NCBI GenBank assembly: GCA_913058395.1 | Contig: CAJXQI010000004.1 | Span: forward strand, 186,001-250,000 | From: an uncultured Colwellia sp. | GTDB lineage: Bacteria > Pseudomonadota > Gammaproteobacteria > Enterobacterales > Alteromonadaceae | DNA: 64,000 nt | Direction: 5' to 3' | Shown here: one piece after another, positions 4,087 to 41,553 of the stretch | Layout of the letters: each line of letters starts with the position of its first letter | Position numbering within the stretch: the first letter of the stretch is position 1 | Notes under the pieces: model-generated | Database searches by the model: none | What the model was told of the DNA's origin: nothing | Seen by the model: only the letters and a program-made list of their open reading frames with translations | Program-made: the position numbers and the translations under genes

Positions 4087-4394
4087 TTAAATGTCTTTTT
4101 TAGCGTAAATTTATCAATATTAACGCCAGCAAATTAATGCAGCGTTTAATTCCCAAATTTTTAGGTAGTTCCTAATAACTTGTGCAAAAGACCTAACAGC
4201 CAGTAAAAACATTTCAATAGAATTCGCCTACTTTGATATTTAGTAAGTTTTACAAATTAATTTACTTTATGAATTCGTATGCAGTTGGTAAGGCAAGGAT
4301 TAAATGTGTACTCTCGAAATACTGTCTTTGTTGACCCTGTCGCCTTGTTCTCGTATCTAATCGAAGCAGGCGTTTACTTTGTAAGGTTTTTTAA
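4087..4394. promoter_or_regulatory. Divergent intergenic region with a 15-bp palindrome
   Basis: This 308-bp AT-rich gap separates the DUF417 gene from the glucan operon and must hold both promoters. The only clear structure is a perfect palindrome at 4161-4175 (TTAGG-TAGTT-CCTAA), 75 bp before the DUF417 start. It is a plausible operator, of the spaced dyad form used by LuxR/NarL-type response regulators, but no regulator gene is adjacent. I see no MalR- or LacI-like site upstream of the amylase. Confidence 0.4.
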
Positions 4395-6371
4395 ATGCGT
4401 CGTTACTTCCCAAAATTTAAATTGTCAAAGCCCACGAAATTAAATAACTTAAAAACGATCACTTGTGCTGTTCTTTTAGGGAGTGGTTTGACTGGTTGCA
4501 TTATTGCGATAAAAGCACCGTCTATAACGTCTGATGTTAGCCATTTGGCGACAGCAAAGGCTAGCGGCACTGTCAGTGATGAAAAAGTTATGGGCAAGCC
4601 CGTGGTATACCAAGTTTTTACCCGCTTATTCGGCAATAAAAATACCACCAATAAACCTTGGGGAACGATACAAGAAAACGGCGTAGGAAAGTTCAGCGAC
4701 TTTAATGATGCCGCGCTAAATGGCATTAAATCACTCGGTGTTAGCCATATTTGGTATACCGGAGTGCCACACCATGCACTAATTGGCGATTATACTGAAT
4801 TTGGCATTGGTAATGATGATCCCGATGTGGTTAAAGGTCGCGCAGGCTCGCCGTATTCAGTAAAAGATTACTACAGTGTTAACCCTGACTTAGCAGATGA
4901 CCCTGCTAATCGCGTGGCAGAATTTGAAGCACTAATAAAGCGCACCCATGATCGCAACATGAAAGTGATTATTGATATTGTGCCGAACCATGTTGCTCGT
5001 GCATATCACTCGATTGATAAACCTCAAGGCGTTAGAGACTTTGGTGCAGATGATAATAAAAGCGTTGAATTCGACCGAGATAACGACTTTTACTATGTTG
5101 TAGGACAAGATTTTTCAGTACCGAAACCGATGCAAGGTTACGCGCCTTTAGGCGGAGAAGAGCACACATTAGCAGATGGTAAATTTGCTGAATCGCCAGC
5201 AAAGTGGACCGGTAATGGCTCTCGTGCTGCACAACCGCACTTTAATGACTGGTATGAAACGGTAAAAGTTAACTACGGCGTAAAGCCTGATGGTAGCTAT
5301 GCTTTTACTCGCTTACCTGAGTCTTACCGTTTTAAAGGTTATCAAGCGCACGCAGCATTTTGGGCTGATAAAGACGTACCGAGTTCATGGAAAAAATTTC
5401 GTGACATTACTCAATATTGGTTAGCCAAAGGCGTTGATGGCTTCCGTTATGATATGGCTGAAATGGTGCCGGTCGAATTTTGGAGCTATTTAAACTCTTC
5501 AATTAAAATGACTAACAATGATGCGTTTATTTTGGCTGAAGTTTACAACCCAAAAGAATATCGTAACTATATTCAACTTGGACAAATGGATTACTTATAT
5601 GACAAAGTCGATTTTTACGACCGCATAAAAGATATTATGCAAGGCCATGGCAATACTGGTGATTTGGCGACAATTCAGCAGCGCTACAGTGATATTGAAA
5701 GTCATTTACTGCATTTTCTTGAAAACCATGACGAACAGCGAATTGCCAGTAATGACTTTGCTGGCAGCGCAGAAAAAGCTAAGCCTGCTATGGTGGTTTC
5801 AACCTTAATCAGCCGTTCACCTACCATGCTTTATTTTGGTCAAGATGTTGGCGAAGATGGTAGCGAAGAAACCGGTTTTGGCGACCCAACTCGTACCACG
5901 ATATTTGATTATGCTGGCGTACCGGCGCATCAACGTTGGATGAATGGTGGCAAGTTTGATGGTGGACAACTTTCAGCTGCTGAGACAAGCTTACGCGACT
6001 TTTATCAACGCTTGCTTAATATTTCAGCCGAAAATAGCGCAATGCAAGGACAATATGCCAGCTTGCATGAGGTTAATCGCAAAGCACTAACCAGCTATAA
6101 CCATCTACAATTTGCTTTTACTCGTTGGTCCGCACAAGAAAAACTGATAGTAGTGAGCAATTTTGATAGTGAAAATAGCGTTCAATACCAGCTTGAAATT
6201 CCTGCGCAGTTAATTAATCAATGGCAGTTATCAGCAGGGCAATATCAAGTTGAGGACTTACTTTATGGCGCAACCAATACCTTAACTGTACGTGACGATA
6301 AAACAGCGAGTATCGATGTGAAATTAGCACCACTTGGCTCTTTCGTCTTTCAACTACAGGCAGCTAAATAA
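4395..6371 (+). CDS. GH13 alpha-amylase-family lipoprotein
   Basis: Glycoside hydrolase family 13 enzyme, acting on alpha-1,4-glucans or derived oligosaccharides. An N-terminal signal ends in a lipobox (LTGC, Cys near 35), so it is predicted to be lipid-anchored in the periplasm or on the cell surface. The four conserved GH13 regions are present: DIVPNHV (D194), GFRYDMAE (nucleophile D353), LAEVY (acid/base E382) and ENHDEQR (D446). A C-terminal beta domain follows from about residue 560. The stop overlaps the next start (TAATG), giving a two-gene operon with the GH31 enzyme. All catalytic residues are intact. Exact specificity (amylase, neopullulanase or cyclomaltodextrinase) cannot be read from the sequence. 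Confidence 0.92.
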   Translation: MRRYFPKFKLSKPTKLNNLKTITCAVLLGSGLTGCIIAIKAPSITSDVSHLATAKASGTVSDEKVMGKPVVYQVFTRLFGNKNTTNKPWGTIQENGVGKFSDFNDAALNGIKSLGVSHIWYTGVPHHALIGDYTEFGIGNDDPDVVKGRAGSPYSVKDYYSVNPDLADDPANRVAEFEALIKRTHDRNMKVIIDIVPNHVARAYHSIDKPQGVRDFGADDNKSVEFDRDNDFYYVVGQDFSVPKPMQGYAPLGGEEHTLADGKFAESPAKWTGNGSRAAQPHFNDWYETVKVNYGVKPDGSYAFTRLPESYRFKGYQAHAAFWADKDVPSSWKKFRDITQYWLAKGVDGFRYDMAEMVPVEFWSYLNSSIKMTNNDAFILAEVYNPKEYRNYIQLGQMDYLYDKVDFYDRIKDIMQGHGNTGDLATIQQRYSDIESHLLHFLENHDEQRIASNDFAGSAEKAKPAMVVSTLISRSPTMLYFGQDVGEDGSEETGFGDPTRTTIFDYAGVPAHQRWMNGGKFDGGQLSAAETSLRDFYQRLLNISAENSAMQGQYASLHEVNRKALTSYNHLQFAFTRWSAQEKLIVVSNFDSENSVQYQLEIPAQLINQWQLSAGQYQVEDLLYGATNTLTVRDDKTASIDVKLAPLGSFVFQLQAAK

Positions 6372-34896: not shown

Positions 34897-35424
34897 ATGA
34901 AAATTGATAACAATCAAGTAAAGAAAATCGTCATATTTGGCAACTCGGCATCAGGTAAATCTAGCCTAGCCAAAAAATTTGCTTCAACACAGCAACTAGC
35001 TCATCTAGACTTAGACACTTTGGCTTGGCTTCCGCCGTCAGCATCGAAGTCAGCCCCGACATCACCACAGCGTCAAAGCATTGCTGTATCTGTTACCGAA
35101 ATTGATGCCTTTATTAGTCAGCATCAAAACTGGGTGATAGAAGGTTGCTACAGTGATTTGTTAGCGCATACGCTAGTCGAATGTAGCGAAGTTGTTTTTA
35201 TGAATCTGCCAATTACACTTTGTATTGAGAACGCAAGAAATCGCCCGTGGGAGTCTCATAAGTATGAAAGCAAAGCTGCGCAAGATGCTAATTTAACTAT
35301 GTTAATAGATTGGATTGCACAATATGATCAGCGCACTGATACCTTTTCAAAGTCAACACATCAAAAATTATTTGATGAATTCACCGGTAAGAAAACACAA
35401 GTTAAAAACAACCAACAGTTGTAA
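34897..35424 (+). CDS. P-loop adenylate kinase/topology-modulation-like protein
   Basis: A 175-residue small nucleoside-kinase-like ATPase: Walker A GNSASGKSS (about 15-23) after a KKIVIFGN strand, LDLDTLAWLP in the substrate region, NWVIEGCYSDLL (about 85-97), and a lid-like RNRPWESHKY segment. It matches proteins often annotated as AAA-family ATPase, shikimate-kinase-like or topology modulation protein. The substrate is unknown. It is monocistronic in appearance, with AGGGCGG upstream of the ATG. Confidence 0.8.
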   Translation: MKIDNNQVKKIVIFGNSASGKSSLAKKFASTQQLAHLDLDTLAWLPPSASKSAPTSPQRQSIAVSVTEIDAFISQHQNWVIEGCYSDLLAHTLVECSEVVFMNLPITLCIENARNRPWESHKYESKAAQDANLTMLIDWIAQYDQRTDTFSKSTHQKLFDEFTGKKTQVKNNQQL

Positions 35425-35581: not shown

Positions 35582-35610
35582 TTGATACTATTAATGTTAC
35601 GATGTAACAT
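35582..35610 (+). promoter_or_regulatory. Promoter of the MerC-like gene with overlapping Zur-type box
   Basis: A perfect spaced palindrome ATGTTAC-GAT-GTAACAT at 35594-35610 resembles the gammaproteobacterial Zur consensus (ATGTTATA-n-TATAACAT; 13 of 16 arm bases by eye). A sigma70-like promoter can be drawn through it: TTGATA at 35582-35587, 17-nt spacer, TAACAT at 35605-35610. Repressor binding would therefore cover the -10 element. Confidence 0.7.
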
Positions 35611-35641
35611 ATCATTTTTAATTGGGCGTAAATGAATAAAA

Positions 35642-36010
35642 ATGAAAAATAAAAAAGATCTTCTAGGAATTGCCTGCTCTGGGCTTTGCATGGTTCATTG
35701 CTTAGCCTTACCCATTTTTGCTGCTGTAGGTATTTCATCAACAGGGCTTATCTACCTTTTTAGTGAATCCACACACTTTTGGTTAAATATTTTAATGATA
35801 TCTATCGCTGTATGGGTATTCCCTAGTGGCTGGCGAGTTCATAAATCTGTAATACCAAGCTTGCTGGCACTTGCAGGGGTTGGGCTAATGATTATGGCGA
35901 CGAAAGTACCAGAAAATGATGAGTTTTATTGGGTAATGACGTCAGGTGTCAGCTTTATTATTGGCCACTTGATCAATCGACATTTACTCCTTATTAAGAA
36001 TATTTCATGA
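35642..36010 (+). CDS. MerC-domain membrane protein, probably zinc-regulated
   Basis: A 122-residue inner-membrane protein with four helices (about 10-35, 44-62, 68-86, 92-115). The first carries C12-x3-C16-x2-H19-C20 (ACSGLCMVHCLALP), the metal-thiol motif of the MerC family. MerC proteins move Hg(II) in mer operons, but no mer genes are here; a Zur-type box overlapping the promoter and a Zur-family gene downstream point to zinc. The ATG at 35642 has a poor ribosome site. A six-codon reading frame starting at 35632 (ATGAATAAAAATGAAAAATAA split across the start) overlaps it and may couple initiation. Confidence 0.8.
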   Translation: MKNKKDLLGIACSGLCMVHCLALPIFAAVGISSTGLIYLFSESTHFWLNILMISIAVWVFPSGWRVHKSVIPSLLALAGVGLMIMATKVPENDEFYWVMTSGVSFIIGHLINRHLLLIKNIS

Positions 36011-36504
36011 CATTTACGCAGGAAAGCTCGGGTAACTTCAATAATTTTATGCTTGTCGAGTGTAGGCGTACCTAAGTTATTAGACGTTTTAAGCACAGTA
36101 TAAATACTGTGCTTAACTAATGGTGGGTAATCAAGAAAGCAAACTTAATCGAAATATAGACACTCAGTAAAATGAATAGTGGCAGAGTTTTCGGCCAATA
36201 AATAAGATTTACTGATTGAAGTGTAACGATCTAAAAATACCAGCATAGCTAATCCCCAACCTTTCTTGCCTTGTATCATTAATCGCGAAGTTTTTATCGA
36301 ATATCTATCTAATTAACATCTAACAATACCGAACTTAAGTTTAAAAAAGAAGAACTGTACAAACAGCAATGATATGATATATCAGCAAGATGAATTAGAT
36401 GATTATCAAACTACTAGCGCAAGGTTAAACCTTCAGGGGCTATAAAATAGTAAGTAAAGTCTTAAACAGTTTGATAAGCAGAACAGGGTATTGGAGATAG
36501 TGCG
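36011..36504. other. Intergenic gap with a hairpin and a Zur-like palindrome
   Basis: This 494-bp gap separates merC-like and zur. It holds a perfect 12-bp hairpin with a 4-nt loop at 36089-36116 (TTAAGCACAGTA/TACTGTGCTTAA), probably ending the merC-like transcript although no T-run follows, and a Zur-type palindrome at 36369-36385. I find no credible coding sequence or RNA gene in the rest. Confidence 0.55.
36369..36385. promoter_or_regulatory. Zur-like palindrome upstream of zur
   Basis: ATGATAT-GAT-ATATCAG carries the same GAT centre as the two other boxes in this locus and matches about 13 of 16 arm positions of the ATGTTATA-n-TATAACAT consensus by eye. It lies 120 bp before the zur start, so it could serve autoregulation if the transcription start is nearby. 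Confidence 0.5.
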
Positions 36505-36960
36505 ATGAAAGAACAACAATTAAATAAAATATTGGGTAAAGCACAAGACATTTGTAATCATTCCGGTGGGCGCTTAACAAGTAAGCGTAAAGGAATTTTA
36601 GAGTTAATGTTACTTTCCAATGTTCCTTTGTCAGCTTATGAAGTAACTGATAAGTATAATAAAAGCACTGGTTCTTCTATGGCAGCAATGTCAGTTTACC
36701 GGATACTCGATTTTCTAGAAACTGAACAATTAGTACATAAACTCAGCTCAACCAATAAGTATGTTGCTTGCTCACATATTGCTTGTAGTCATACTCATGA
36801 AATACCACAATTTCTTATTTGTGGAAAATGCCAAAGTGTTAAAGAAATTGCCATCGCTAAACGCATTGCTGATGAATTAGAACAGGAAGTCGCTAACGCA
36901 GGTTATAAGCTGGTTAATTCACAATTAGAATTACAATGTATATGCGAGAAGTGTTCATAA
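36505..36960 (+). CDS. zur: Zur-type zinc-responsive repressor (Fur family)
   Basis: A 151-residue Fur-family regulator closer to Zur than to Fur. The winged helix reads GGRLTSKRKGILELML..SAYEVTD and SVYRILDFLETEQLVHKLSSTNKYVAC, like E. coli Zur's VYRALDFL and VHKVESTNSYVLC. The structural zinc site has C106-x2-C109 (ICGKC) and C147-x2-C150 (CEKC); candidate sensing ligands are C89, H91, C94, H96, H98 and E114. When zinc-loaded it should repress zinc-acquisition genes. Palindromes of Zur type occur before this gene, the MerC-like gene and the TonB receptor, all within 4.2 kb. AGGGTATTGGAG precedes the start. Confidence 0.85.
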   Translation: MKEQQLNKILGKAQDICNHSGGRLTSKRKGILELMLLSNVPLSAYEVTDKYNKSTGSSMAAMSVYRILDFLETEQLVHKLSSTNKYVACSHIACSHTHEIPQFLICGKCQSVKEIAIAKRIADELEQEVANAGYKLVNSQLELQCICEKCS

Positions 36961-37138
36961 ATGTAGCGTTAATAAGTATTAACTCCATTCAACAAACAAA
37001 CCTGATATAACTAACTGCTCAAGGTTAATTTATAATGCGCAAGTAACCACCTTGAGTAATACCTTAGGTTGATCTGTTCAAGAATATATTTCAAAAACTC
37101 AACAGATTTGCGCTCTACTAATTTTAATATTTCATCTG

Positions 37139-38299
37139 CTAAAAATACTTCACCCACTGCATATTGGTAGCGCGTTTAAACTCACTAAACTTTTTGCTCG
37201 GCCAATATAAAAGCAAAATTAGCCCAGCTGAGAATAGCCAAACATGTCCAACGTGATTAAAAGCGAGGTATCCTTGCTGAGGGTTACCATAAAAGGTATT
37301 CGGCCCCCAAATTTGGTAAGCAAGAAGGTAACAAACAAGCAAAGCGTAAAGATGTAAAATATAGAAAAACATCGGCGCAGAGCCCAATATGTTTACTTTA
37401 TTTAGCCAGCTTGCTTTAGCGGTTTCTAACCATGCTAAAGTTAACGCGCCTATGCTGATGGCAAACAATAGAAAGTCTAACGAAGGTGGGTACTTGGTAT
37501 AGTTCAAAAACGCCATTATGCTCATTAATACCGTGGCTTGTTGCGTCCATTCAAGTGTTTCACCATAAATGTTAAAGCCTCGTAAAATAAGTAATAACGC
37601 TATTAAACTAAAACCCGTTTTGATTAACATTGACTTACGCTTCACAGAACTTACTTTTGAAGAAAACAATGGTCCAGCCGCATAACCAAGCATAATAACG
37701 CCAATCCACGGTAAAACCGGGTACGATACTTTTACATTCAGCCATGCGTCACTTATTAGAAAACCGCGATCATGTAATATCGTCCATACACTGTAACCCA
37801 ATTCACTTGAATTAAACTGAATAGGTGACAGTAAGTTATGGCCGACAACAATGGCTAATCCAATAGCAATTATCCATTGGCGTGGCAAATGCACGGCAGC
37901 CGCAAGTGCAATCATACTTAAACCAATTGCCCAAATTACTTGCAAATAAAGTGTGTTATAAGCGCCAAACCAAGAAAAATTAATTAAGGTAACTTCGAGT
38001 AGAATTAAAATCAGCCCACGTTTGAATAAAAAGCTTGGCGCTGAACGCTTGATGCCACTACTCGGGTTAGCATATAACCATGCAGATATCCCAGTAAGAA
38101 AAACGAAAATGGGTGCACATAAATGGGCGCTTAAGCGCGTGAAAAATAGCTCTGGCTCAGTATTATTAATATCCATCGGGTCGAGCACTTGTTTATGTAA
38201 GAAGAAGCGCTCTCGAACATGGTCAACAAGCATGAGTAAAATCACAAAGCCTCTAAGAATATCGATAGAAGCAATTCGGCTAGGTTTTATATTTGTCAT
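37139..38299 (-). CDS. DUF1624/HGSNAT-like membrane acyltransferase
   Basis: A polytopic membrane protein of 386 residues with about ten helices. The N-terminus RIASIDILRGFVILLMLVDHVRERF is the DUF1624 (heparan-alpha-glucosaminide N-acetyltransferase catalytic-like) signature; LPWIGVIMLGYAAGPLF (near 205) is also typical. Family members are thought to transfer acyl groups across the membrane; substrates in bacteria are largely unknown. It follows the TonB receptor by 43 bp on the same strand, so both probably share one mRNA under the Zur-type box at 40506. This suggests, but does not prove, a role in modifying or releasing the imported metal chelate, or in cell-envelope adaptation to zinc shortage. 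Confidence 0.8.
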   Translation of the reverse strand: MTNIKPSRIASIDILRGFVILLMLVDHVRERFFLHKQVLDPMDINNTEPELFFTRLSAHLCAPIFVFLTGISAWLYANPSSGIKRSAPSFLFKRGLILILLEVTLINFSWFGAYNTLYLQVIWAIGLSMIALAAAVHLPRQWIIAIGLAIVVGHNLLSPIQFNSSELGYSVWTILHDRGFLISDAWLNVKVSYPVLPWIGVIMLGYAAGPLFSSKVSSVKRKSMLIKTGFSLIALLLILRGFNIYGETLEWTQQATVLMSIMAFLNYTKYPPSLDFLLFAISIGALTLAWLETAKASWLNKVNILGSAPMFFYILHLYALLVCYLLAYQIWGPNTFYGNPQQGYLAFNHVGHVWLFSAGLILLLYWPSKKFSEFKRATNMQWVKYF

Positions 38300-38307
38300 T
38301 TGTTTTT

Positions 38308-38327
38308 AGCGCTTCTTTCGAAGCGCT
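38308..38327 (-). promoter_or_regulatory. Intercistronic GAAA-tetraloop hairpin
   Basis: In the mRNA sense this reads AGCGCTTC-GAAA-GAAGCGCT: an 8-bp perfect stem with a GNRA-type tetraloop, in the 43-nt gap between the TonB receptor stop and the acyltransferase start. It has no U-tract, so it is more likely an mRNA processing or 3'-end protection element than a terminator. It could set different levels for the two genes. Confidence 0.55.
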
Positions 38328-38342
38328 GTTCACTAAGGTTGT

Positions 38343-40466
38343 TTAAAAGTTGTAGCTAACACTTGCGTTAATTCTTCTTGGCTGCCCAGGCATAGTCCAC
38401 AAAGCAGAATAAGAATTAGCAAAGTACTCTTCATCAAATAGGTTTTCGATATTAGCTTGCAGTGTTATGTTGTCATTAATATTTAATGTGCCGAACAGGT
38501 TAACAATGGTGTAGCTTGGCAATTCATAATCTGGGTCAATAGTTTCACCTAAACGGTCACTAACACTTAGTACGTGAGCACCCAATTGTAGTGGTGTATT
38601 TGCTACTTCTGCATAATGAATAAGTGACATATTCAGAGTGTGTTTTGGCACATTAATAAGTTGGCTGTTAGCAGCAATACTCACTCCCCAATCAGGGTTG
38701 GTCATATCGTTTACTGTATGAGCATCAATGTAGGTATAACCAATATCTAATACAGTATTTTCAGTTACGTTAAAGCGAGAATCTAACTCAACACCTGAGC
38801 TTTCTGCTTTACCCAATGCAACAGAAAAACCTGAGTTGATGGGGTCTGCGGTTAATATATTAGACTTTTCAGTTTTAAATAATGCGACTGTGCCACTTAA
38901 TACATCATTAAATAATGACCACTTCACACCTGCTTCAATTGACTCACTTTTTTCAGCTTCAAATGCGTTACTATTAGCGTCTGCACCAGAGTTTGGTCGA
39001 AAACCTTCAGCATAATTTGAATATAGCGTGACTCCTTCATCAACTTGATATGAAATGCCAATTCTTGGGTTTACTTCAGACTTAGATTGACTAACAGTAT
39101 TGCCGCTAAAGTTATTAGTAATATCTTGCTCAAACTTATCAAAACGCACACCTATTAGCAGGTTAACTTTTTCACTCAAGGCCATTTGATCTTGTAAATA
39201 AATCCCAAAAGCATTTTGCTCTTCAAGGTTGTCTTGTGTTGGCGATGTTTCAGGTGCTGTTTGGCCATATACAGGGTTGTAAGCATTTACGGAAAAAGTT
39301 GTATCGCCGCTACCCCAAGCTGTGCGCCACCTTTCTTGTATAGAATGCAACTCATAGTCGTAGCCATCTGCACCAATCAATACGTTGTGCTTTGTGCCTA
39401 GCGCGTCAAACGAGCCGTTAAGTTCAAATCTCAATGAAGCGTCTTTTGCATCATAATCACGATAACGTCGTTGTCGGCTAACGGTTTCAGCGTCAGTATA
39501 AAGTAACTGTCTGCCCGGTGATAATTCAATTTCCGACGAATATCCTTCTAAAGAAGAATCTCGGTAACCAGCACCCAACGACAAGAACCAATCAGCATTT
39601 ATTTGATGCTGCAATGTAAGTTGATGCCCCATAGCTTCAACTTCCATAGGACCATCACTTGGCTCACCTAAAAACGTTTCAGGTGAAACATTAACGCCAG
39701 GTAACACAGGAATACCACGGTCAAACGGAATCTCTTGATCAGCGTATTCGAACTCGTAAGTTAAGCTTGTATCGTCGCCTAGCTTTACAAAAATAGAAGG
39801 CGTTATTGCCGTTTTTTTGCTTTCAATGGTATCTCTAAAGCTTTCTGAATCTTCATATGAACCATTAATTCGAAATGCAACATCATCTGTAATGCCGCTA
39901 GTGTAATCACCTTCAAGACGTTGGTGGGCATATTCACCCGCAGAAAGCTTTAGGTAACCTTGTTGTTCAAACTGAGGCTTTTTAGTGATGATATTCACGG
40001 TGCCGCCAGGCTCGCCGCGGCCATAAAGAGCAGAAGCAGGGCCTTTTAATACCTCAATAGACTCGATATTAGAGGTATCTCTTAAACCACTAAAGCCACG
40101 CCCAGCGCTAAATCCGTTAATTAAATATGCAGAAGGTAGGTTTTCATCACCAGAAAAGCCGCGAATAGCAAAGCTTTCCCAAAGACCGCCAAAGTTGTTT
40201 TGACGTGACAAGCTGCTGTCTAAACTTAGTGCCGTTTGAAAGTTTGAAATGCCCATAGCATCAAGCTCTTGTGCAGATATAACCGACACTGCTTGTGGCA
40301 ACTCTTTAACGGGTACATTACCGCGATATGCTTGCTTGTAACTAATGACTTCAATTTTTTCAATGTCACTCAATGCATCATCTTGAGCAAATATTTGAGG
40401 TGATAGTAAACTCGAAATCACAGTGGCAATCGCTGTTTTGCCTATTTTCATTTTTTTGTTATACAC
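38343..40466 (-). CDS. TonB-dependent siderophore-type receptor, probably zinc-regulated
   Basis: Outer-membrane active transporter of 707 residues. It has a signal peptide ending near IFA-QD, a plug domain (about 45-165) with LPQAVSVISAQELDAMG, SFAIRGF and VLKGPASALYGRGEPGGTVNIITKKP, and a 22-strand barrel finishing with a C-terminal Phe (VSYNF). The pattern is that of FhuA-like siderophore receptors. The GTG at 40466 is chosen because AGAGA lies 8 nt upstream; the ATG at 40451 has no ribosome site. A Zur-type palindrome fills its promoter, so the ligand is probably a zinc chelate rather than ferric siderophore. It heads a likely operon with the DUF1624 acyltransferase. Confidence 0.9.
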   Translation of the reverse strand: MYNKKMKIGKTAIATVISSLLSPQIFAQDDALSDIEKIEVISYKQAYRGNVPVKELPQAVSVISAQELDAMGISNFQTALSLDSSLSRQNNFGGLWESFAIRGFSGDENLPSAYLINGFSAGRGFSGLRDTSNIESIEVLKGPASALYGRGEPGGTVNIITKKPQFEQQGYLKLSAGEYAHQRLEGDYTSGITDDVAFRINGSYEDSESFRDTIESKKTAITPSIFVKLGDDTSLTYEFEYADQEIPFDRGIPVLPGVNVSPETFLGEPSDGPMEVEAMGHQLTLQHQINADWFLSLGAGYRDSSLEGYSSEIELSPGRQLLYTDAETVSRQRRYRDYDAKDASLRFELNGSFDALGTKHNVLIGADGYDYELHSIQERWRTAWGSGDTTFSVNAYNPVYGQTAPETSPTQDNLEEQNAFGIYLQDQMALSEKVNLLIGVRFDKFEQDITNNFSGNTVSQSKSEVNPRIGISYQVDEGVTLYSNYAEGFRPNSGADANSNAFEAEKSESIEAGVKWSLFNDVLSGTVALFKTEKSNILTADPINSGFSVALGKAESSGVELDSRFNVTENTVLDIGYTYIDAHTVNDMTNPDWGVSIAANSQLINVPKHTLNMSLIHYAEVANTPLQLGAHVLSVSDRLGETIDPDYELPSYTIVNLFGTLNINDNITLQANIENLFDEEYFANSYSALWTMPGQPRRINASVSYNF

Positions 40467-40498
40467 GGTTTCATCTCTTGCGATTAAATTTGTGCAAG

Positions 40499-40527
40499 AT
40501 AATATATGTTATGATGTAACATAACAA
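40499..40527 (-). promoter_or_regulatory. TonB-receptor promoter with Zur-type box in the spacer
   Basis: On the minus strand, TTGTTA (40527-40522), a 17-nt spacer and TATTAT (40504-40499) form a near-ideal sigma70 promoter 33 bp before the GTG start. The palindrome ATGTTAT-GAT-GTAACAT (plus-strand 40506-40522) occupies the spacer. It matches about 14 of 16 arm positions of the Zur consensus by eye. Confidence 0.75.
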
Positions 40528-40662
40528 TAAGGTTGAGTTGAAAAATTGTAATAGATATTTTTAACTGAGCAAATAAACAGCTTTATTTTAGGATAAAATC
40601 CATCTAAGCTTCAATTTATAGAAATGGTAAATATGCTTAGTTTAAGGTGACATCCTATATTT

Positions 40663-41553
40663 ATGGCCTCTCTTGAAAGTCTCAGAAAAGTAAGCTTTAT
40701 TAAATACTTATCAGTACTCATTCTTCTTGCTGTAAATTATTCAATTAGTGCACAAGAGAGCACTATATACTGGCAAACAGATCATAGACCTCCAGCCTCA
40801 ATCTTACATGGTCCTCGTCAAGGGGAAGGGTACATTGATCGTATTCGTAACACATTAATCAATCAACTTCCTCAATATCAGCATATTAACACTGTCAGCG
40901 CTTTAGACACCTTATTTGAAGACATGGAGCGAGATAAGAATATCTGTCATCCCTTATTGTTTGTAACTGAACAACGAAAAAAGCACGCTTACTTTTCAAT
41001 ACCTGTAACTATCACTCCATCGATACGTGTTGTCATGAAAGCTGATTTAGCTCAATCATTATCCTTAGAGGAACCAATCGACCTTGAGCAGATTTTCACT
41101 AGCCAAAGAACATTTGCTACTATAAAAGGGCGCTCTTATGGCAAGTTCATTGATAAAGCAATTAGCAAACAACACAATAATTATTCACATGCAAAAATAA
41201 GTGTCACAGACAATACAAGACTGTTTAAGTTGTTAGCACGAGACCGCGTTGACTTTACTTTTACGTTTCCATTTGAGCTTAATTACTATCAAAAATATAC
41301 TAACGACACTCAATTTAAAGCATTCACTATTACTGGTTTGAGTGATTACACATTGGGTAGTGTCGCTTGTACTAAGAATGCATGGGGAAAGTCTGTAATA
41401 AACAACGTAAACAAGGTGCTATTACAGCAGCGTCAAAAAGAAAACCATATCCCTACAATGAATTACTGGTGGCCTGAAGAAAGTAAAAAGGATGCGTTTA
41501 ACAGGTTTTATCAAGATGTCTTTCTAAAAAGCAAGGTTAATAGTTTAAAATAA
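40663..41553 (+). CDS. TIGR02285-like periplasmic binding protein
   Basis: A 296-residue secreted protein of the type II periplasmic-binding (SBP_bac_3-like) fold, subfamily TIGR02285. The signal peptide ends near ISA-QE. Family features are TIYWQTDHRPPASILHGPRQGEGYIDRIRN (about 34-65), NICHPLLFVTEQRKKHAYFSIP (about 95-115), the hinge GRSYGKFID and a C-terminal MNYWWPEESK. Genome neighbours do not include a permease or ATPase, so it may be an orphan receptor or sensor input. It is transcribed away from the TonB receptor; the Zur-type box lies about 140 bp upstream, so shared zinc control is possible but weaker than for the receptor. Confidence 0.75.
   Translation: MASLESLRKVSFIKYLSVLILLAVNYSISAQESTIYWQTDHRPPASILHGPRQGEGYIDRIRNTLINQLPQYQHINTVSALDTLFEDMERDKNICHPLLFVTEQRKKHAYFSIPVTITPSIRVVMKADLAQSLSLEEPIDLEQIFTSQRTFATIKGRSYGKFIDKAISKQHNNYSHAKISVTDNTRLFKLLARDRVDFTFTFPFELNYYQKYTNDTQFKAFTITGLSDYTLGSVACTKNAWGKSVINNVNKVLLQQRQKENHIPTMNYWWPEESKKDAFNRFYQDVFLKSKVNSLK

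Follow-up and report, generated by a model that had tools for sequence, protein, structure and literature searches.

A ZnuK-type receptor paired with a DUF1624 membrane protein behind Zur-type sites in Colwellia, a candidate unit of zinc-chelate uptake

In a 64,000-nucleotide stretch from an uncultured Colwellia sp. (assembly GCA_913058395.1, contig CAJXQI010000004.1, positions 186,001 to 250,000; hereafter the window), we find a TonB-dependent receptor of the ZnuK type followed, after a gap of 43 bp on the same minus strand, by a gene for a HGSNAT_cat/DUF1624 membrane protein. The two probably form an operon, and a palindrome of the type bound by the zinc regulator Zur stands in its promoter. 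The pair recurs in many genera, often with the same type of switch, hinting at an undescribed uptake route for carrier-bound zinc. Zur regulation and the linkage of receptor and enzyme are well supported by the sequences compared; the ligand of the receptor, the target of acetylation and the direction of zinc flow are what we infer from them. Tentatively, and at a little short of an even chance, we read the locus as a Zur-controlled zinc-chelate uptake unit whose enzyme would, on the periplasmic side, acetylate the chelator or an amine related to it. A sequence-only reading of the window had proposed a zinc-chelate uptake unit that also took in a MerC-like protein. Zur control and the conserved receptor-DUF1624 pairing speak for this proposal on the level of sequence; the MerC-like part fares less well, a MerC relative being found in just 9 of the 100 loci of two surveys (three loci are common to both). 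The Zur-family, MerC-like, receptor and DUF1624 genes named in that reading all lie where it had placed them, as profile matches confirm (Table 1).

Zur and its sites in the window

The Fur-family protein of the window is Zur, as judged from its sequence. Its top solved relatives are 7dh7 (7e-20), titled just 'fur family' and which we take to be a Zur, and the Zur structure 4mtd (1.1e-18), followed by Fur at 9.7e-7 and PerR at 1.3e-4. The metal ligands of E. coli Zur, presumably H77, C88, H96 and E111 together with C103, C106, C143 and C146, are all eight kept in the alignment to 4mtd as read by eye. Another Fur-family gene in the same genome matches PF01475 far more strongly (162 bits) and is presumably Fur.

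Three palindromes with a common GAT centre had been noticed before the merC-like gene, zur and the receptor gene, and all three hold up, the one before zur in a degenerate form. The core shared by the two others, GTTA-N5-TAAC, is described as the conserved core of Zur sites in many proteobacteria (PMC4176598). At the receptor promoter six of the seven arm positions pair, and a second inverted repeat (40507-40526) overlaps the site. The palindrome before zur has the core GATA-N5-TATC and, because it differs by eye at three positions from the 17-base pattern ATGTTAYNNTRTAACAT, its sequence does no more than suggest a possible autoregulatory site. The window is not enriched in palindromes as such: with 7-bp arms and a 3-bp spacer it has 6 perfect ones, where 30 mononucleotide shuffles give 5.4, and with 6-bp arms it has 19, where they give 21.3; the palindrome before zur, taken by itself, falls within chance expectation. 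Given that this count is uninformative, the case was made instead from the identity of the motif, its rarity in the genome and its conservation, measured against permuted motifs.

The pattern ATGTTAYNNTRTAACAT was drawn from the two exact window sites and the Zur geometry after those sites had been viewed. It has three exact matches in the 4.39-Mb genome, those at merC-like and at the receptor and one in a zrg-type cluster, so that just the third is independent. This third match (contig C29) has an ABC transporter gene on one side and a DUF3299 gene on the other, and genes for CobW, ZrgA and DUF1826 lie further out. Some CobW (COG0523) proteins are reported Zur targets (PMC4176598), zinc limitation induces the zrg operon of Vibrio, as does mutation of zur, and the operon of V. 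parahaemolyticus has a predicted Zur site with the GTTA-N5-TAAC core (PMC9817125). With up to two mismatches the pattern matches 24 times forward and 21 times in reverse, against 27 and 28 for a backward control, which is background level. When the promoters are aligned with those of the congeners L067 and L068, all three sites fall in the better-conserved parts: the merC-like site has one mismatch to the pattern in both, and the palindrome before zur is identical in both, inside a conserved block, with much of the surrounding promoter different in one. The receptor site of the three other congeners that have the pair shows 0 or 1 mismatch.

Does the receptor instead take up an iron siderophore, under Fur or another iron control, with zur nearby by coincidence? 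We consider this very unlikely. The receptor fits the siderophore-receptor model TIGR01783, the solved structures closest to it are FoxA and FhuA entries, and several homologous pairs have no Zur-type site; against this stand the exact Zur-type site at the receptor, the homology of the receptor to Zur-repressed ZnuK, and the presence of folE2, zrgA and zur beside the pair in relatives. The best Fur-box match in the window receptor promoter, a value without a shuffle control of its own, has 8 mismatches in 19 positions, scored against a consensus that we take to be that of the Fur box. Shuffled sequence of 39 related receptor promoters averages 7.1 to 9.5 mismatches, and in 37 of them the best match does not go beyond the promoter's own 30 shuffles; only L152 and L159 do so slightly (6 mismatches against a minimum of 7), though a Zur-type site is present there too. 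Fur control of the receptor, which the sequence-only reading had named among the findings that would overturn it, was therefore set aside, and these sequences give no indication of iron control.

The receptor-enzyme pair in related genomes

Relatives of the enzyme occur in 34 of 147 genomes of the family, that of the window included, and 20 of the 33 other regions were read. A homologous receptor stands directly upstream of the enzyme in 11 of these 20 loci and, with the window counted, a Zur-type site within two mismatches is present in 11 of 12 receptor promoters, whereas 219 permuted palindromes average 0.29 in 12. Of the permuted motifs, ATGYTATNNNATARCAT is almost identical to the real one and scored 11 of 12 here and 19 of 39 in the wider scan described below; it was kept inside the control means. 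In the twelfth locus (L078) the receptor and DUF1624 genes end a longer run that opens with an ABC ATPase and two permeases, and tandem sites lie ahead of the whole run. Nine family loci lack a receptor directly upstream; two of them (L073, L086) have a site just before the enzyme and seven have none. Within the genus the enzyme is found in 4 of 17 genomes, and all four have an adjoining receptor, each with a site.

In a wider scan we read the best 80 of at least 584 confirmed enzyme relatives. Directly upstream in 39 of these 80 is a receptor of the same subfamily, and 20 of the 39 pairs have a Zur-type site at the receptor (control mean 0.77, 100 permuted palindromes). Some further sites lie outside the stretch scanned by the automatic rule and were seen by eye, slightly further out in L152 and L159 and at the operon start in L149. 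Locus L127 was put among the 41 loci without a receptor directly upstream since its second DUF1624 copy had matched; its receptor has an exact site. Three loci (L098, L123, L149) are L070, L075 and L078 of the family survey, with identical receptors. The pair also adjoins other zinc genes. Four Pseudoalteromonas loci (L102, L104, L111, L117) have zrgA, zur and merC before it, ZrgA and MerC being Pfam-checked in L102 only, and in L071 zur, merC, an amidohydrolase that reads as PyrC-like and folE2 follow one another 1.7 kb ahead of the pair. FolE2 and a PyrC paralogue are usual Zur targets. The sequence-only reading had proposed a search for conserved co-location, and this search bore it out for receptor, DUF1624 and Zur-type sites, which are linked in many genera, the MerC-like gene being near in some.

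How the switch is distributed over the enzymes was followed on a tree of 94 sequences, 95 having been collected and L091 (221 amino acids, split frame) dropped as short; the family loci L070, L075 and L078 (which recur under their other numbers), L082, L084 and L086 were left out. All labels were assigned by hand; L127, L149, L152 and L159 went in as having a site and L162 as an enzyme that has one. The label of a pair with a site needs 13 changes on this tree against 27.5 when shuffled; it is clustered, yet it does not form a single clade.

Some enzymes stand apart from the receptor, and here a different role comes into question, that of a Zur-regulated envelope modifier which acetylates lipid A, peptidoglycan or polysaccharide, aids zinc-starved cells and lies beside the receptor as a co-target only. 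Eight of the 41 enzymes without a receptor directly upstream have a site (control mean 0.38), L073 combines enzyme and site without a receptor, and in L162 the enzyme directly follows folE2, with the site before folE2. We nevertheless think this role unlikely for the window protein, given that 39 of the best 80 enzymes immediately follow a receptor of this one subfamily, across Gamma-, Beta- and Alphaproteobacteria, an arrangement tighter than co-regulation requires.

Receptor, enzyme and a possible mechanism

A search with the 19 letters of the published Zur site of Caulobacter znuK found it in 2 of the 390 genomes in the family to which a Brevundimonas locus belongs. At both sites a receptor gene is transcribed away from those of an ABC-2 ATPase and two permeases, matching the description in the paper. 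The receptor beside the site in L181 is 34.9% identical to the window receptor over 659 residues (381 bits), whereas five other TonB receptors, a set to which FoxA and FhuA do not belong, reach at most 103 bits. By its sequence, then, the window receptor is of the ZnuK type, with a different partner. In Caulobacter crescentus Zur is reported to bind the znuK/znuGHI promoter in electrophoretic mobility shift assays, both are derepressed when EDTA is present or zur is mutated, and ZnuK is needed for growth in low zinc (PMC4176598). The two systems thus share a homologous receptor with a Zur site in its promoter, and the ABC-2 ATPase and permeases of ZnuGHI have homologues that adjoin the receptor-DUF1624 pair in Sphingorhabdus, Kordiimonas and others. 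The permeases of the znuK locus have homologues (38-41%) in L173, and these L173 permeases match the ones next to the pair in L078, L138, L152, L159 and L166. The two systems differ in that ABC-2 genes are missing beside the pair in the window, and in that tblastn found no DUF1624 gene in the 17 kb around the Caulobacter znuK site in the two genomes.

Side by side with these loci, DUF1624, a TonB receptor and ABC-2 ATPase and permease genes occur together in L138, L152, L159, L166 and L078 (Alpha- and Gammaproteobacteria), and in L100 (Flavobacteriaceae, Bacteroidota) DUF1624 lies beside a distant TonB receptor. In two congeners (L173:901-7781, L174:773-7751) a receptor of the same subfamily (about 50%) stands behind an ABC-2 ATPase and two permeases, and a divergent AstE/AspA-type deacylase (Pfam match made for L173) shares the promoter, which has a Zur-type site, exact in L174 and with one mismatch in L173. 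The genomes of L173 and L174 gave no DUF1624 match. The deacylase and the DUF1624 enzyme would both act on N-acyl groups. PDB entries 6i96, 6i97, 6i98 and 8b43 carry the molecule names CntO or FoxA, both for one sequence (the 8b43 group), and these labels are unfit for inferring a zinc ligand.

By family, predicted fold and conserved residues, the DUF1624 protein appears to be a transmembrane acetyltransferase of the HGSNAT/YeiB type. Its AlphaFold2 model (386 amino acids) is confident and helical (pLDDT 89.5). Foldseek against the PDB gives 15 matches at E of 0.001 or below, of which 13 are titled HGSNAT and 2 just 'membrane proteins'; the best match has an E of 9.7e-6 and a TM-score of 0.58 by query. 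When solved structures were searched by sequence with the DUF1624 alignment, no hit had an E of 1 or below. D13, R16, D26, H27, R94, K269, H316 and K375 are invariant in 94 of 94 relatives and R8 in 93 of 94. With R239, D244, R247, N258 and H269 of human HGSNAT as reference (PMC11357348), the spacing of R8, D13 and R16 equals that of R239, D244 and R247 at the cytosolic entrance, and H27 lies at the distance of N258, as compared by spacing along the sequence; H35 is a candidate for the counterpart of catalytic H269. Human HGSNAT thus resembles the window protein in its PF07786 domain, its predicted fold and the R-x4-D-x2-R spacing; the latter differs in being shorter, in having its place in the bacterial inner membrane and not the lysosome, and in having no sure match for the catalytic histidine. 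Bacterial HGSNAT relatives are described as lacking the luminal domain (PMC11357348). By analogy, the DUF1624 protein probably moves acetyl groups across the inner membrane.

From these parts a course of events may be drawn. When zinc is plentiful, Zn-Zur would sit before merC-like and the receptor operon and shut both off, and perhaps would also bind before zur itself. When zinc is scarce, the receptor, by its class and its ZnuK homology, would use TonB energy to bring a zinc-chelator complex into the periplasm, the chelator probably being made by other organisms. The enzyme would take cytoplasmic acetyl-CoA and, in the manner of lysosomal HGSNAT, pass the acetyl group over the inner membrane onto an amine of the chelator. 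Acetylation would weaken zinc binding and hand the metal to periplasmic carriers (ZrgA, ZnuA), from where it would enter through inner-membrane importers, perhaps the MerC-like protein. Derepression and chelate import draw on sequence and on ZnuK homology; the later steps are what we infer. That periplasmic acetylation of imported chelators from cytoplasmic acetyl-CoA frees zinc under starvation, and that chelator chemistry is a general partner of ZnuK-type receptors, as the deacylase and ABC-2 genes beside the same receptor elsewhere might indicate, seems to us possible and rather doubtful.

A second view of the pair keeps zinc-chelate import under Zur and makes the DUF1624 protein an inner-membrane carrier or docking partner instead of an enzyme. 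A single inner-membrane carrier can serve a siderophore receptor, as reported for FiuB (PMC7699141), what is conserved where no ABC genes are linked is the pair by itself, and the HGSNAT superfamily is classed in the transporter database. However, 93 to 94 of 94 relatives keep polar residues that resemble those at the acetyl-CoA site of HGSNAT, the fold matches an acetyltransferase, and several loci hold the enzyme and an ABC-2 transporter together, all of which makes the carrier an improbable choice in our view.

Several observations weigh against chelate uptake coupled to acetylation. The support for it comes from sequence and prediction. On the side of the enzyme, the fold match has moderate TM-scores (0.58 when scaled to query length, 0.43 when scaled to the target), and the equivalent of catalytic H269 is unplaced, the nearby H35 being kept in just 82 of 94 relatives. 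On the side of the receptor, FoxA scores 175 bits (phmmer, in a comparison separate from the one that gave ZnuK 381 bits), and the Caulobacter znuK locus, L173 and L174 have the receptor without the enzyme, so that the enzyme is not essential to this receptor class. The pair is patchy, 13 of the 17 genomes of the genus being without the enzyme. By the automatic rule, 41 of the best 80 enzymes have no receptor directly upstream, and the enzyme may act without this receptor in some loci, such as the eight that have a site. By the same rule 19 of the 39 pairs have no site at the receptor: L149, L152 and L159 with their sites seen by eye, six pairs of Oxalobacteraceae (L126, L131, L140, L141, L148, L153; at least four mismatches), four of five Shewanella pairs (L129, L130, L134, L137; best match four mismatches, and nothing under four mismatches in the promoters before the small upstream open reading frame), and L103, L138, L143, L087, L156 and L166, among which L087, L103, L156 and L166 have three mismatches, one over the limit of the rule. 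Eight loci of Bacteroidota are without a Zur-type site except for one bare core match (L089).

Acetylation in metal release has a precedent in FiuC of P. aeruginosa, which is reported to acetylate ferrichrome during iron release and, with the receptor FiuA, joins a TonB receptor and an acetyltransferase in one pathway (PMC7699141). The likeness is one of role. FiuC belongs to an iron pathway, and it counts against our proposal that it works in the cytoplasm, unlike the window enzyme, which is predicted to act across the inner membrane. The deacylase beside the same receptor in L173 and L174 is a hint toward chelator-modifying chemistry. The pseudopaline/ZrmABCD system of P. aeruginosa likewise has a Zur-regulated TonB receptor for a zinc chelate (PMC11481552); it has its own chelator synthesis, whereas neither a nicotianamine synthase nor a condensation domain was found in the genome of the window. 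In the literature searched, mostly outside subscription journals, we found no link of Zur to a DUF1624 or HGSNAT-type protein and no zinc pathway in which acetylation of a chelator drives the release of zinc, and none of the papers naming DUF1624 has zinc in its title or the opening of its abstract. As far as this search goes, the DUF1624 partner would thus be new within a known kind of Zur-regulated receptor system. If our reading is true, a Zur-controlled membrane acetyltransferase behind a receptor in many genera would be a candidate enzyme with a testable reaction, and the bacterial DUF1624 family would gain a physiological setting.

Neighbouring genes and other zinc genes of the genome

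Table 1. Genes and Zur-type palindromes of the locus, in coordinates of the window
Feature	Position	Strand	Details
Zur-type site ATGTTACGATGTAACAT (ATGTTAC-GAT-GTAACAT)	35594..35610		exact GTTA-N5-TAAC; 31 bp before merC-like
MerC-family gene	35642..36010	+	122 amino acids; PF03203 68.7 bits, cut-off 27.6
Degenerate Zur-type palindrome TGATATGATATATCA (TGATAT-GAT-ATATCA)	36370..36384		120 bp before zur
Fur-family gene zur	36505..36960	+	top NCBIfam model Zur, 89.8 bits, below the model cut-off of 167
HGSNAT_cat/DUF1624 gene, second in receptor operon	37139..38299	-	PF07786 60.1 bits, cut-off 22
TonB-dependent siderophore receptor, ZnuK-type	38343..40466	-	TIGR01783 344.9 bits
Zur-type site ATGTTATGATGTAACAT (ATGTTAT-GAT-GTAACAT)	40506..40522		exact GTTA-N5-TAAC; 54 bp before the likely start of the receptor
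TIGR02285 solute-binding-like gene, divergent from receptor	40663..41553	+	162.5 bits, cut-off 143.3

The likely start of the receptor is the ATG at 40451, the open reading frame as called opening at a GTG further upstream. The MerC-family protein is a putative inner-membrane metal permease. Its 14 residues that are invariant in eight sequences include D6, S13, C16, H19, C20, P24, H45, H67 and H109. It is flanked by an AAA/kinase-like gene (34897-35424) on one side and by zur on the other, and no mer genes appeared among the flanking genes and the five other proteins covered by the profile scan. A search for papers on a Zur-regulated MerC, within the same limits on journals, found none.

The sequence-only reading had noted that ZnuABC genes are absent. 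This is true of the locus, and elsewhere the genome does encode znuA and znuB, on contig C1, and the zrg-type cluster, on C29. The latter (L028:4357-9561; MacB-like ABC, DUF3299, CobW, ZrgA, DUF1826) has one exact site and one with two mismatches. The znuA and znuB genes (L027:4545-7945) are preceded by a small open reading frame containing His and Cys and by a porin-like protein with His-rich stretches; no ATPase is among the open reading frames listed there, and positions 4300-5010 before znuAB hold no Zur-type site within four mismatches. Synthesis of a zincophore by the cell itself was considered and set aside: neither a condensation domain of nonribosomal peptide synthetases (NRPS) nor a nicotianamine synthase was found in the genome, in a search that did not extend to NRPS-independent (NIS) synthetases or routes of the ethylenediamine disuccinate (EDDS) type, and this result fits a borrowed chelator.

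In four Shewanella loci (L129, L130, L134, L137) a small open reading frame with a HCSLCLHQHQ-like motif, weaker in L129, precedes the receptor; by eye it resembles the one before znuAB in the genome of the window, and its L134 copy has no Pfam match. A second TonB receptor on contig C6 (L036:2731-5373), with a weak CarboxypepD_reg-like match near its start, lies together with a small open reading frame just behind a Zur-type site with two mismatches, and may be another Zur target, though sites of this quality are at background level genome-wide. Whether the TIGR02285 gene belongs to the zinc locus is uncertain. One of the 20 family loci (L076, 11334-12173) likewise has a relative (22% identity) that is divergent from its receptor, and there as in the window the divergent gene goes together with a Zur-type site close to the receptor start.

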